From: Candidatus Parcubacteria bacterium
GTDB taxonomy: Bacteria > Patescibacteriota > Saccharimonadia > Saccharimonadales > 2-12-FULL-41-12
Direction: 5' to 3'
DNA: 39,522 nt
NCBI GenBank assembly: GCA_019347895.1
Contig: JAHWKM010000012.1
Location: 1-39,522, forward strand
Translations under genes and position numbers: made by a program
The notes under the pieces: model-generated
Seen by the model: the letters and a program-made list of their open reading frames with translations, nothing else
Databases searched by the model: none
Told to the model about the DNA's origin: nothing
Shown: one piece after another, positions 14,457 to 35,968 of the stretch
How positions within the stretch are numbered: the first letter of the stretch is position 1
Layout: each line of letters opens with the position of its first letter

Positions 14457-15152
14457 CTATTCAGAGGTTTTATCCTCTGTTTCGGCAGGTTCCGGAGCTG
14501 TTTCGCCGGCTTCCTCAACCTCGGCTGGTTCTTCTTCGACGGCACCTTCGGCGGCAGCTTGTTCTTCCAGGGCGGCGTCGGCTTCGGCTACTTGATCTCT
14601 CGGTGTTTCGACAGAGGCTATTAAGTGGTCCTGGTCGGTTTTTACGGTGACGTTTGACGGAACCTTGATGTCGCTGACATGTAATCTGTCGCCGGCTTCG
14701 ATTAAGGTTGAGCCGTCAACTTCGATAGAATCCAGCAGGTCTTTTGGCAAGGCTTCCACCTCCAGATAATCAAGATGAGTCAAAACCAGCAGGTTGGCGC
14801 GGGCGGCTGGAATTTCATCGCTAAGTTTTATCGGCACCTCGGCGGTTACTTTTTCGTCTTCCTTAATTGACTGAAAAACCGCGTGATAAAATGAATAACT
14901 GGCCGGGGCATTAGTTACTTCCTTGATGATAGTGGTATATTTTTTGCCGTCGACGTCCAGTTTGATGGCATGGTGCCGGCCAGCGGCCGAAAAAGCTTTT
15001 TTAAACAGGGCCGAATCAACTGACACGTGCAGCGACTCGCCGCCTCTTTGATGAACAACAGCCGGAGTGTATCCTTCGCGGCGCAAGCGCCTTACCTGCT
15101 TGCCTAGAACATTGCGTTTTTGGGCAGTCAGGGTTATATCGGCTTTACTCAT
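14457..15152 (-). CDS. rplY: 50S ribosomal protein L25/general stress protein CTC
   Basis: ITLTAQKRNVLGKQVRRLRREGYTPAVVHQRG and beta-barrel domain with acidic C-terminal tail. Confidence 0.9.
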   Translation of the reverse strand: MSKADITLTAQKRNVLGKQVRRLRREGYTPAVVHQRGGESLHVSVDSALFKKAFSAAGRHHAIKLDVDGKKYTTIIKEVTNAPASYSFYHAVFQSIKEDEKVTAEVPIKLSDEIPAARANLLVLTHLDYLEVEALPKDLLDSIEVDGSTLIEAGDRLHVSDIKVPSNVTVKTDQDHLIASVETPRDQVAEADAALEEQAAAEGAVEEEPAEVEEAGETAPEPAETEDKTSE

Positions 15153-15239
15153 CTAATCTGTGATCTCCAAATCTTTAAGAAGTAATTTGAGGCTATTATA
15201 ACACACATTGAAGGTTGCCTTGCTGTTATACTTGATCTA

Positions 15240-15869
15240 ATGTCGTTCCTCGAACCAAATGAGTTGATCAAAGCTGGCGGCTTGGCCTTGATTGCCTTCA
15301 TTGTTTTTGCCGAGAGCGGTCTGCTTTTTGGGTTTTTCTTCCCTGGTGATACGCTGCTATTTGCTGCCGGGGTACTTGCCGCTACCGGAGAATTCAACAT
15401 AGTGGAAGTAACGGCGGTAATTGTTTTTGCCGCGATAGCCGGCGGCTACTCCGGTTATTGGATCGGCAAAAAGGCCGGGCCAAAGCTGTTTAAAAAAGAG
15501 GAAGGCATCATCTTTCGCCGCGAATACATTGAACGCAGCGAAAGGTTTTATGAAAAGCATGGCGGCAAAACAATCATGTTCGCCCGCTTCATACCGGTTA
15601 TCCGCACCTTCGCGCCAGTCGTGGCCGGCATTGGCAATATGAACCAAGCCAAATTCATGTTCTACAATGTTGTTGGAGCCGCTTTTTGGGGAATCAGCAT
15701 AACCCTGGCCGGATTTTTCTTCGGCAGTAAAATCCCCAATATTGAAGCTTACGTATTCCCTATCCTTTTGTTAGCCATGGCCTTAACGGTCAGCCCGACC
15801 ATCTATCACATCTTAAAAGACCCGCGCGCCCGCCAAAAAATCGCCGAAAAACTACGCCGCATTCTGTAA
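15240..15869 (+). CDS. DedA family (VTT/SNARE-associated) membrane protein
   Basis: FAESGLLFGFFFPGDTLLFAAG and FARFIPVIRTFAPVVAGIGNM motifs. Confidence 0.93.
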   Translation: MSFLEPNELIKAGGLALIAFIVFAESGLLFGFFFPGDTLLFAAGVLAATGEFNIVEVTAVIVFAAIAGGYSGYWIGKKAGPKLFKKEEGIIFRREYIERSERFYEKHGGKTIMFARFIPVIRTFAPVVAGIGNMNQAKFMFYNVVGAAFWGISITLAGFFFGSKIPNIEAYVFPILLLAMALTVSPTIYHILKDPRARQKIAEKLRRIL

Positions 15870-23629: not shown

Positions 23630-24901
23630 TCAGTATTCAAGACTATTTTGATCGACAATTATTTTTTGGCCGGGTTTTATTTGGCGGCGCTCCAGCTCGT
23701 TCATGATACCCATTTTGCGCATAATGTCGCGCAAGCGCTGTACACCGGCTGAACTGTCAAAATCGGTTCTAGAGGCAAAACGCTCTATTTTTCTGCCGAT
23801 AACCACAAATTCGTTTTTGCGTTTCACAACCCGCCAGTCGGCTTCTAATTTAGGCAGCTTTATGACCGGCAGTTCGTCTTCCGGCCTCTTGGTTTTGGCT
23901 TGTTTCTCTGCTACCTTTTGCAGATACTTTTTAATTTCGAATAGCAGCTGCTGCACGCCTTGTCCGGAGTGGGCGGAAATGGCTAGTATTTTCGTACCTC
24001 TTTTAGCGGATTTTTTGATAGTGTTGATGTGGTCGCCGATAATTTCCTGGTCAAGTCCCTCTATTTTATTAATCACTACAATCTGCGGTTTTTTAGCCAG
24101 CTTTGGACTGTAAGCCGCCAGCTCGTCAATTATAGTCTGATAGGCCTGAGCGATATTGTCTTGATAGGCGTCAACCAAATGAACCAGCAGCTTAGTACGT
24201 TCCACATGGCGTAGGAACTCGTCGCCCAGGCCCTTGCCTTGGCTGGCGCCTTCAATCAGGCCGGGAATATCAGCAAATAAAACCGTGGTATCCTTGTCTA
24301 TATCTACTACGCCCAAGTTTGGCTTGAGTGTAGTAAAAGGATAGTCGGCAATTTCCGGCCGGGCATTGCTGATCTTAGCTAGAAGGGTTGATTTGCCGGC
24401 GTTAGGCAAACCTATCAGCCCGATGTCAGCTATCATTTTAAGCTCAAAGACCGCCGCGAATTCTTCGCCGGGCTCGCCAAACTCGGCAATTCGAGGAGCC
24501 TGGCGAGTGCTGCTGGTAAAGTGGGCATTTCCAAAGCCGCCTTTGCCGCCTTTGGCGATAAGTTCTTTTTGGCCGTTATAAGTCAGGTCAGCGATCACAT
24601 TGCCGTCGGCGGTTGTAATAACCGTACCCACAGGCAATTTAACGACCAGATTTTGGCCTGCCCGGCCGTGTTTTTTGCGTTTTTCGCCGTTATCCCCAGG
24701 ATTGGCGGCCACTAGTTTTTTATATCGAAAACTAGCCAAGGTATTTTGGTTGTTAGAGGCCTCGGCGTAAACGTCTCCGCCGTTACCGCCGTCGCCGCCG
24801 TCCGGGCCGCCGCGTTCCACGAATTTTTCATGGCGAAAACTCAGCTTGCCGTCGCCGCCTTTTCCCGCCCGAATAGTAACCTCAACTTTATCAACAAACA
24901 T
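23630..24901 (-). CDS. obg: GTPase Obg/CgtA
   Basis: FVDKVEVTIRAGKGGDGKLSFRHEKFVERGGPDGGDGGNGGDV, GLPNAGKSTLL, C-terminal OCT-like domain. Confidence 0.97.
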   Translation of the reverse strand: MFVDKVEVTIRAGKGGDGKLSFRHEKFVERGGPDGGDGGNGGDVYAEASNNQNTLASFRYKKLVAANPGDNGEKRKKHGRAGQNLVVKLPVGTVITTADGNVIADLTYNGQKELIAKGGKGGFGNAHFTSSTRQAPRIAEFGEPGEEFAAVFELKMIADIGLIGLPNAGKSTLLAKISNARPEIADYPFTTLKPNLGVVDIDKDTTVLFADIPGLIEGASQGKGLGDEFLRHVERTKLLVHLVDAYQDNIAQAYQTIIDELAAYSPKLAKKPQIVVINKIEGLDQEIIGDHINTIKKSAKRGTKILAISAHSGQGVQQLLFEIKKYLQKVAEKQAKTKRPEDELPVIKLPKLEADWRVVKRKNEFVVIGRKIERFASRTDFDSSAGVQRLRDIMRKMGIMNELERRQIKPGQKIIVDQNSLEY

Positions 24902-24909
24902 ACCTTTTT

Positions 24910-24951
24910 AGAGTAAAGAGTAAAGAGATAAGAGTAAAGAGATAAGAGTAA
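24910..24951. repeat. Degenerate heptanucleotide tandem repeat (6 units)
   Basis: agagtaa agagtaa agagata agagtaa agagata agagtaa, upstream of obg. Confidence 0.95.
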
Positions 24952-25064
24952 AAATTACTCCGCGTTGTTATTGGAACCAGGCCATTTTATTTTTTTAAAA
25001 TCCGCTTGGGAGGTGAGCAGCCAGAGAAAATTTCCAAGCGGAATACCTGAGGATTGAGATAAGT

Positions 25065-25213
25065 GCATTTGAGTGCAATACAAGGAAGTTATGAAGCGCG
25101 GAGTAAAGCGTACAAATGTACGCTGCACGAGCACTGGAATAACTGACGCAGTAGTGTGCCAAAAGTACTGGCAGGGTTTTGAGCTCTGCTTAAAAGCAGG
25201 TCAGAACGGTGCA
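25065..25213 (+). ncRNA. Candidate structured RNA / conserved repeat element, copy A
   Basis: ~84% identical to 35732-35882 (-) over ~150 nt with three compensatory base-pair changes and a 2-nt indel in a hairpin loop. Confidence 0.65.
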
Positions 25214-25219
25214 CTTAGC

Positions 25220-26347
25220 TCAATAGATGAAGCGGTAGTTGCCGGTTTCGCTGGCTGGAACGGTACGGTAGGTTACCTGTCCCCAATATGGATAGTTCAT
25301 ATCAGACACCAGAAAAGATCCGTTGGAATTAACACTCTCCACGTATGCTACGTGGCCCAATCCTCCGATGTTCAGGTGGTACAATACGGCGCCAGCCCTA
25401 GGAGCAGTACCTGTAGGCAGTCCGGCTGCACGGGCACCGCCTAACCAGGAAATCGCATTGCCTAAATTGCTGGGAATAGGATTTCCGGTCTGTGCCCGCC
25501 TATTGGCGGCATGCCAGGTACACCAGCCGTAATCGTAGGCATTAGCTCTATAAACCGGAGTCAGGCCGAATGAAAAGGCTGAGCCGCGAGCTGAAGCATA
25601 GTTATAAGTATTTTGCGCGGGAGGTTCTAGCCCGTCAGGGATAACTATTCTATCGCCAACCTTAAATTTTCCGGTAAGTTCCGCGTCATTAAAAGCGATT
25701 AAAAGGTTTCTGTCGGCCCGGTATTTTGCGGCAATAGTGCCCGGAGTATCGCCGGACTTTACGGTGTAGACAAGGCCATTGACCGGGCTGATCACTAATG
25801 TGGTTCCGATGGCTACCGTGTCACCGCTGAGACCGTTAGAAAGTCTAATAGTATCAGAGCTGACGTCGAATTTTTTAGCGATGCTGGTCACCGTATCGCC
25901 TTCGACTACCTTGTACGATTTAATGTCTTTTTTAGATTTCAATGCTTCGGAAATAATCTGGGGCTTTGCAATAAGCTTGTCGTCATCAGAGGCCACGCTA
26001 AGCGCGCTCACCCTAACCGTGTCTGCCTTGTTAGTTACGGCGTTTTCTTCCGGCAGATTAGCTGCCCGGGCAATGTTAACCGCAATGTCAGCCGAAGACA
26101 ACTTGTCTAAAGGATTAGCAAGTTTTTGGGTTTCGGCGGCCACAAAGCTGCTGGAATAATTAGCCTGGTTGGAAGGTTTGTTTGCCGCTACTAAAATACC
26201 GACAATACCGAAAACAGCCAGATTAGCTGCTAAAAAGCTTAAACGCACAAACCTTCTATGCGATCTGGTAAAAAAACGAGTCAAAATAGTAATTTTTGAC
26301 TCTTTTCGCGCCCTTAAAGATCGTTGCCATGGTAAACGGTGCGTCAC
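25220..26347 (-). CDS. LysM (x2) - CHAP domain peptidoglycan hydrolase
   Basis: YKVVEGDTVTSIAKKFDVSSDTIRLSNGL and YTVKSGDTPGTIAAKYRADRNLLIAFND LysM repeats; CTWHAANRR...GAVLYHLNIGGLGHVAYVE CHAP motifs. Confidence 0.93.
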   Translation of the reverse strand: MTHRLPWQRSLRARKESKITILTRFFTRSHRRFVRLSFLAANLAVFGIVGILVAANKPSNQANYSSSFVAAETQKLANPLDKLSSADIAVNIARAANLPEENAVTNKADTVRVSALSVASDDDKLIAKPQIISEALKSKKDIKSYKVVEGDTVTSIAKKFDVSSDTIRLSNGLSGDTVAIGTTLVISPVNGLVYTVKSGDTPGTIAAKYRADRNLLIAFNDAELTGKFKVGDRIVIPDGLEPPAQNTYNYASARGSAFSFGLTPVYRANAYDYGWCTWHAANRRAQTGNPIPSNLGNAISWLGGARAAGLPTGTAPRAGAVLYHLNIGGLGHVAYVESVNSNGSFLVSDMNYPYWGQVTYRTVPASETGNYRFIY

Positions 26348-34599: not shown

Positions 34600-35736
34600 C
34601 TAAATAACAGATGAAATAATTCCGCCGCCTAGACATTGATCGCCTGCGTAAAACACGGCGGATTGGCCGGAAGCTATGGCGCGCTGTTCATCCTTGAGAG
34701 TTAACTTATTCCCTTTTAGTTCGCAATCGATCAATGGCCCCCTATACCTTAATCGAGCACGCAGCTTCTCTGCCTTTTCATTCTTCATTCTCCGTTCTTC
34801 ATTCTCTATGTTGTCGATCCAATGTAAATCTCCCAGCTGTATTTCTTTACTCCATAATTCTTTATCTGAGAGATCCGTTGTTACGTAAACGGTATTATTG
34901 CTCATGTCTTTTCGGGTTACATAATAAGGCAGGCCACCGCCGAGATTCAGGCCATGGCGCTGGCCAATGGTGTAGAAAATTGCGCCCTCGTGCTCGCCGA
35001 TAGTTTCGCCTTCGCTGGACAGCGAATGGTTAATGATTGGACCCGGCTCGGCCTTAATGTAATGGCTCAAAAATTCTTTGATTCCCACCTGGCCGACAAA
35101 ACAAATGCCCTGACTGTCTTTTTTTTCCGCCGTCGGCAAACCAAACTTCTTGGCCAGTTCTCGCACCTCTTCTTTCGAATCAAACTCGCCTATCGGAAAC
35201 AGGGTTTTAGACAACGCCTCACCCGTAACCCGCGCCAAAAAATAAGTCTGATCCTTATTTTTATCCGCCGCCACATGCAACTCACTGTGAAAGGTGAGAC
35301 CTCTCACATTTTCCTGCTTGACTCTTGACTCTTGATTCTTGACTCTTACCACCTGGGCGTAATGGCCGGTAGCGATCATATCAGCACCTTGTTCTAAGGC
35401 GGTATTCAAAAATAGCTTGAACTTTACTTCTTGGTTGCACATAATGTCCGGATTGGGCGTCCGGCCAGCTTTGTACTCATCAATCATATAGTCGACTACT
35501 TTTTGCCTATATTCTTTTTGAAAATCAAACACCTTAAAATCAATGCCCAGCTTGGTCGCTACGCACTTAGCGTCCCGATAATCTTCCGTCCAGGGACACT
35601 CAAAGCCGGCAATATCTTCCGTCCAATTTTTCATATAGACTCCGGTCACGCTGTAGCCTTGCTCTTTGAGCAAAGCCGCTGTAACGGACGAATCCACTCC
35701 CCCGCTCATACCCACATAAACATACGGCTTATGCAC
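34600..35736 (-). CDS. mnmA: tRNA-specific 2-thiouridylase MnmA
   Basis: YVYVGMSGGVDSSVTAALLKEQGYSVTGVYMKNW, CNQEVKFKLFL, GICFVGQVGIKEFL; GTG start. Confidence 0.96.
   Translation of the reverse strand: MHKPYVYVGMSGGVDSSVTAALLKEQGYSVTGVYMKNWTEDIAGFECPWTEDYRDAKCVATKLGIDFKVFDFQKEYRQKVVDYMIDEYKAGRTPNPDIMCNQEVKFKLFLNTALEQGADMIATGHYAQVVRVKNQESRVKQENVRGLTFHSELHVAADKNKDQTYFLARVTGEALSKTLFPIGEFDSKEEVRELAKKFGLPTAEKKDSQGICFVGQVGIKEFLSHYIKAEPGPIINHSLSSEGETIGEHEGAIFYTIGQRHGLNLGGGLPYYVTRKDMSNNTVYVTTDLSDKELWSKEIQLGDLHWIDNIENEERRMKNEKAEKLRARLRYRGPLIDCELKGNKLTLKDEQRAIASGQSAVFYAGDQCLGGGIISSVI
34778..34805. repeat. Heptanucleotide repeat inside mnmA (4 units)
   Basis: tcattct tcattct ccgttct tcattct; encodes NEERRMKNE on the minus strand. 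Confidence 0.85.
35319..35346. repeat. Second heptanucleotide repeat inside mnmA (4 units)
   Basis: tgactct tgactct tgattct tgactct; encodes RVKNQESRVKQ on the minus strand. Confidence 0.9.
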
Positions 35737-35882
35737 CGTTTTGTCCTGCTTCCGGGCAGAGCCCGAAACCCTGCCAAAACTTTTGGCACGCTACGGCGTC
35801 AGATACTCCAATGCTCGCGCAACGTACGAATGTGTACGTTTTGCTCTGCGCTTCGTATCTTCCTTGTATCGCACTCAAATGC
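35732..35882 (-). ncRNA. Candidate structured RNA / conserved repeat element, copy B, ending at the mnmA start codon
   Basis: Homologous to 25065-25213 (+); its 3' end aggacaaaacgGTGca includes the mnmA SD-like region and GTG start. Confidence 0.65.
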
Positions 35883-35968
35883 AAAACCCGTAAAACTTCA
35901 TGCAAATTCATAGGAATCCTATTTTACCACGCCCGTATGGACACCCTATCGCGGTGTGTATGTTATGG

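Follow-up and report, generated by a model that had tools for sequence, protein, structure and literature searches.

The window, which is the whole stretch of 39,522 nucleotides analysed here, is contig G000:C3 of a 907-kb, 27-contig Saccharibacteria assembly; this genome is referred to as G000 and its same-genus congener as G001. Analysis of the window revealed two copies, A and B, of a palindromic element. Copy A lies between obg and a LysM-CHAP gene, where the first-pass annotation had placed it and where Pfam identifies GTP1_OBG, LysM and CHAP, and is opposite in strand to both genes, while copy B lies near the 5' end of mnmA. The features are as follows.

23630-24901, minus strand: obg, flanking copy A (Pfam GTP1_OBG).
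25053-25058, plus strand: left locus-specific arm of copy A, ATTGAG (outer P1), complementary to 25219-25224.
25060-25068, plus strand: 5' strand of P1 of copy A, pairing with 25209-25217 (minimum free energy fold identical to the centroid fold; covariation in the A2/A4 alignments).
25061-25216, plus strand: core of copy A, a predicted P1-P2-P3 three-way junction (fold z -4.3; covariance model R1, 158.5 bits, E 6e-34, a score that is not independent because R1 was built in part from copy A itself).
25069-25163, plus strand: P2 of copy A, a long hairpin with small sequence-conserved internal loops (AAGGAA..GAAGCGCGGAGUAAAGCGUAC / GUACGCUGCACGAGCACUGGAA), from fold and covariation.
25165-25207, plus strand: P3 hairpin of copy A (..GAGCUCUGCUUA..), from fold and covariation, absent from short-form members.
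25219-25224, plus strand: right locus-specific arm of copy A, CTCAAT, overlapping the minus-strand CHAP gene at its stop codon.
25220-26347, minus strand: LysM-CHAP gene, flanking copy A (Pfam LysM, CHAP).
34600-35736, minus strand: mnmA, interrupted near its 5' end by copy B (Pfam tRNA_Me_trans).
35729-35886, minus strand: core of copy B (R1 155.4 bits, E 3.1e-33; fold z -3.4).
35729-35911, minus strand: 60-aa leader open reading frame through copy B (MNLHEV..GQNGA), running from the presumed original mnmA start codon, with its stop overlapping the GTG restart of mnmA.

Short tandem-like AGAGTAAAGAGATA repeats were also observed upstream of obg (24905-24955).

A search of the own genome with copy A recovered copy B at 83% identity over 152 nt (E = 3.2e-39), which excludes chance and agrees with the duplicated ~150-nt element at ~84% identity that had been counted by hand. 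The duplicated stretch is real, but the extent first given, 25065-25213, was too short, the core spanning 25061-25216 and carrying in addition arms of ~6 nt, the right one of which reaches the stop codon of the CHAP gene. The 2-nt length difference between the copies, previously located in a hairpin loop, is indeed placed in the apical loop of P2. Two intergenic loci common to G000 and G001, that of copy A (25061-25216, L176 in G001) and that of L111 (L172 in G001), carry the element in opposite orientation in the two genomes, by either in-place inversion or separate insertions.

Copies A and B folded separately gave the same branched structure (z -4.3 and -3.4, respectively), in which P1 closes the element, P2 is long with several small internal loops and P3 forms a hairpin. 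Comparison of A with B showed 10 pairs changed on both sides, three changed to or from G-U and three broken, while a random null breaks ~18, so that the compensatory base changes first noticed by eye are upheld. The two copies differed at 25% of paired and at 6% of unpaired positions, indicating that the stems drift together while the loops are held. The MAFFT alignment of 17 copies gave a consensus of 54 pairs, 48 of which had at least one compensated change. Among 87 distinct copies, whose alignment was fitted to the model and is therefore biased towards the fold (the 17-copy alignment was not so fitted), double changes occurred at 52 of the 54 pairs, standard pairing in 94.1% of pair cells, and the covariation score was 0.842 compared with 0.255 after shuffling and at most 0.123 with the pairing partners slid. 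Pair cells outside the Watson-Crick rules comprised 324 G-U compared with 60 A-C, and G-U prevailed in some columns as in a conserved wobble, which agrees with a structured single strand, RNA or DNA, having the sense of the element itself.

The covariance model R1 was built from the 17 MAFFT-aligned copies. Blastn detected relatives of copy A in 13 of 100 related genomes, and R1 recovered ~32-34 copies in G000 (32 at E<=1e-4) and, at the same threshold, 36 in G037, 24 in G005 and 23 in the congener G001; fuller scoring of 39 relatives ranged from no copy (12 genomes) to 36. Across the order, matches were found in at least 150 of 396 genomes and at least 86 of 156 genera, counts that are lower bounds since few candidates were scored per genome, and 48 of 389 genomes sampled phylum-wide had matches, in other families too. 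The presence of the element in the single-contig genome G040 indicates that it is not an assembly artefact, and public records with copies include JANWIN010000012.1, JACDFO010000013.1, JAICHO010000023.1 and JAQGGX010000062.1. No Rfam family reached its gathering threshold and nothing credible appeared at E<=10. Viral contigs searched with two degenerate patterns gave 0 matches and phage and plasmid records searched with blastn gave none, both searches being sensitive to close relatives only.

In G001 the mnmA gene starts ATGAATTCC.. (ATGAAT..) without the element; in the window, copy B comes after this ATGAAT. By this comparison of sequences, copy B is an insertion directly after the predicted mnmA start codon. 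The earlier argument that a frame shift between A and B speaks against a protein stood in part: copy A and many others are closed by stops in every sense frame, but copy B has an intact 60-aa open reading frame and other copies lie in frame within genes. A subfamily found mostly just before gene starts (L117, L119, L121, L122, L125-L129 and L133) has a common open frame of ~55 codons, and several of its members (L117, L119, L122 and L129) have a promoter-like box and a start codon directly upstream.

Alignment of glmS showed that the G000 protein has ~49 residues more than that of the congener, placed right before GIGHTRWATHG, the insert being open and in frame. This insert is missing from the other 12 aligned relatives, G001 having a short linker at the site, while glmS of G014 carries the element at a different position and represents a second glmS insertion. 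In G001, tsaD and a Y-family polymerase gene each contain the element in frame; the corresponding G000 sites are empty. Further own genes with the element are those coding for methylpurine-DNA glycosylase, UDP-glucose dehydrogenase and, at its N-terminus, a HAD hydrolase; the Pfam domains interrupted by inserts are MPG, TsaD and PolA exonuclease. Two of the own genes, ugd and glmS (G000:C11:6936-7859 and 15046-15589), each contain an in-frame copy and are preceded, directly before the start codon, by a further copy in the same orientation, which may reflect either local re-insertion or chance.

A short form lacking P3 occurs in the G360 genus, where it interrupts ileS (three times), polA and parB, for the most part on the antisense strand, and pyrG in the sense orientation; ileS, pyrG and polA were named by Pfam and parB from its sequence only. 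Site 866 of ileS is filled in one of 28 readable congeners, G360 (165 nt compared with 60 in the closest relative), site 719 in G360, G788 and G219, and site 215 in a few congeners. Shortened inserts (26 codons net) persist at site 719, and R1 matches in ileS are restricted to carriers of an insert. In all gene-internal copies examined the frame is open and the length of the insert is a multiple of three, and the sense copies use mostly one reading frame of the element.

The element is mobile, as relatives have empty sites at glmS, mnmA, tsaD, the Y-family polymerase gene and ileS; it is real, phylum-wide and outside Rfam. The first-pass annotation had suggested a dispersed family of structured RNAs or mobile palindromic repeats, and both halves are borne out by the additional copies, the covariation and the empty sites. 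Neither outcome that it had named against itself, a lack of further copies or conservation of a reading frame in place of base pairs, occurred: copies exist in the genome and in relatives, and covariation is strong. The in-frame gene-internal copies, the position of copy B right after the mnmA start codon and the locus-specific inverted flanks had been overlooked.

Analysis of these flanks revealed that P1 extends ~6 nt beyond the core, Watson-Crick pairing being 63-82% at offsets 1-6 compared with 25-48% between mismatched copies and falling to background from offset 8 onwards. Of the copies, 49% stand between inverted runs of 6 nt or longer, compared with 3% of controls, while direct target duplication was at control level (mean longest direct repeat 3.09, compared with 2.95 in mismatched controls). 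The arms are locus-specific: in copies with 70-86% similar cores the outermost positions are at or near background identity, and no conserved terminal inverted repeat was found there. Since the outer arms are not common to copies with similar cores, guide arms carried by the donor were rejected. At six loci (glmS of G000, glmS of G014, the Y-polymerase gene, tsaD, mnmA and ileS site 866) the 3' flank in element orientation looks host-like while the 5' arm looks additional and is complementary to the 3' flank, a polarity read by eye from alignments of ~70-78% identity anchored by the coding frame or the gene start. There are exceptions: both arms look inserted at L164, and host bases seem to be replaced at L131. 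The empty glmS sites of G001 (AAGATATCTT) and G004 (AAAGCTTT) are themselves palindromic, which leaves room for insertion into pre-existing palindromes, while the empty sites at the Y-polymerase gene and at L164 are not palindromic.

Rickettsia palindromic elements (RPEs) are 105-146-bp palindromes whose open reading frames are fused in frame to Rickettsia genes, and a guanylate kinase carrying an RPE insert is still active (PMC2229807, PMC10969869). Like RPEs and the Wolbachia palindromic elements (PMC2229807, PMC10969869), the Patescibacteria element is palindromic, dispersed, intergenic as well as in frame in unrelated conserved genes, and tolerated by the protein; it is a multicopy dispersed palindrome of ~100-160 bp with empty alleles in relatives. 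A non-autonomous mobile palindromic element that acts in Patescibacteria as RPEs do in Rickettsia is, in our view, the probable explanation. Unlike RPEs, the element belongs to another phylum and is spread across it, reaches up to three copies per essential gene, mostly antisense in one genus, and has outer arms that differ at every locus, with no conserved terminal repeat; it is further set apart by description through a branched P1-P2-P3 fold that is far more constrained and has sequence-conserved internal loops. With miniature inverted-repeat transposable elements (MITEs) such as ERIC, Correia/NEMIS and RUP the element shares a size of 100-200 bp, non-autonomy, terminal pairing, multiple copies and occasional in-frame fusions (PMC2229807), but it lacks a conserved terminal inverted repeat, its direct target duplication does not exceed that of controls, and no parent transposase was found for it, no copy being seen next to a transposase in the proteomes, which were unannotated.

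The unit is the 110-160-nt core, folding on one defined strand to P1-P2-P3 (P1-P2 in the short form), with variable stems and internal loops that are held. It enters intergenic and genic sites alike and survives in genes only where the frame is kept, the enzymes gaining ~26-58 residues in loops or at their ends. Some enzyme may recognise the folded single strand, either ssDNA or RNA, which would explain why the loops and the pairing are conserved while the stem sequence drifts. The 3' end would then be joined to the host and the 5' side would gain an arm copied as the reverse complement of the host 3' flank, so that every insertion would bear an individual inverted flank in place of a direct duplication, and selection would finally purge insertions that break genes. 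The family, its fold, its insertions, their open frames and the inverted flanks are demonstrated by the data. We infer single-strand mobilisation and templating of the flanks, and tentatively suggest, as a possibility short of an even chance, that the folded single strand is inserted by novel machinery that seals the 5' side by copying the host 3' flank, with an inverted flank duplication of ~6 nt as its signature. To our knowledge an insertion signed in this way has not been described for bacterial mobile DNA.

Among the candidates examined for a mobilising protein, RVT_1 and Y1 transposases, none was found to be the mover. Reverse transcriptase was rejected, RVT_1 being missing from G000 and G001 and showing no association with carriers. 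REP/BIME elements with their TnpA_REP (RAYT) are strand-specific hairpins in many copies, as the element is, and Y1 transposases occur in many carriers; a REP/BIME-type element moved by resident TnpA_REP-like transposases would account for the association of Y1_Tnp with carriers (17 of 40, compared with 2 of 21 non-carriers, p 0.009), and a palindromic, strand-specific single-strand structure suits Y1 chemistry. We nevertheless consider this unlikely. REPs are 20-40 bp long with a GTAG or CGTC tag (PMC3733652), while the core of the element is 110-160 nt and tagless, no tag standing at its foot and at most 12% of feet having one within 10 nt. Y1_Tnp is missing from many high-copy genomes, G001, G004 and G015 among them, although these assemblies are incomplete. 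The two TnpA_REP-like Y1 genes of G000 (G000:C20:46923-47147 and G000:C23:57349-57591, one of them interrupted by a stop codon) have short palindromes on either side (TTGCAAGGCCGGGCC.. and AGGTCGGACCT..) which, read by eye, are unlike the element. The Y1 transposases, associated with carriers as they are, probably go with other palindromes.

A functional structured RNA family, either a regulatory element or a small RNA, under RNA selection at each locus and spread by old duplications, is rather improbable as an explanation, although the pairing itself speaks for it. Orthologous copies of G000 and G001 (L107/L175 and L130/L186) show compensatory changes, one pair having 8 double changes and 5 broken pairs where the null breaks ~18 and the other 11 broken compared with ~19, so that the structure persists after insertion too; a function at the locus or hairpin-templated correction fits this as well as a selfish element does. 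The large excess of G-U over A-C on the element strand is a further point in its favor. In several copies, which stand at gene starts, the right arm of P1 extends into the start region. The contexts nevertheless disagree, comprising starts of same-strand genes, stops of opposite-strand genes and the interior of genes in sense and in antisense; orthologous sites in close relatives have no copy, and the orientation of the element is opposite in G000 and its congener at two loci. A consistent riboswitch-like 5'-leader position on same-strand genes was not seen, copies occurring in both orientations, inside genes and at gene ends.

A self-splicing or otherwise processed intervening sequence removed from the mRNA would accord with the strong conserved fold, its sequence-conserved loops and the interruption of essential genes, but is very improbable, since the gene-internal copies examined are open and multiples of three as an intron need not be, the element is antisense to most interrupted genes in one genus, and the 26-codon inserts persist at ileS site 719. 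Equally doubtful is a family of small genes of ~55-60 aa whose similarity reflects peptide conservation: about ten own copies have a common open +2 frame, several with the promoter-like box and start codon noted above (L117, L119, L122 and L129), and copy B has its 60-aa frame, but many copies including A are closed in all sense frames, gene-internal copies lie mostly in another frame or on the opposite strand, and compensatory pair changes dominate.

Integron attC sites are recognised as a single strand and their structure is better conserved than their sequence. The element resembles them in keeping structure better than sequence, but lies outside cassette arrays, the neighbours in genomes with clustered copies looking like ordinary housekeeping genes that often contain the element. 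For genus g55, cassette arrays were rejected, the clustered copies being located within housekeeping genes and in the spacers that separate them.

The Patescibacteria element is thus of the protein-coding palindromic kind, here in a variant form, and its insertion signature could make more of it. Such palindromes have so far been reported from Rickettsia and Wolbachia and are now found in a streamlined, mostly uncultured phylum, in numbers that reach tens of copies per 0.6-0.9 Mb, and in genes that cannot be lost; a literature search confined to open-access journal papers, and therefore weak evidence, found no published protein-coding palindrome for Saccharibacteria or Patescibacteria. The same essential enzymes (IleRS, GlmS and PolA) present a natural series of insertions in varied decay from which one can read directly how far an inserted peptide is tolerated. 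Annotation is affected as well: apparent insertions and start sites of Patescibacteria proteins may be derived from the element, as with mnmA here. The interest lies in the missing mover and in the unusual-looking marking of the insertion site: the fold and the inverted flanks make the movement of such palindromes testable, and a templated inverted flank, if true, would be a novel mode of insertion, phylum-wide in ultrasmall bacteria.

The ileS genes of G245 (L411) and G302 (L409) harbor a second in-frame palindromic insert, apparently unrelated and without R1 match; in L411 its peptide is SRGVSQAAAENEAARAREDGPRERRPRE and, at one site there, it is flanked by an inverted copy of ~20 nt of the host flank.
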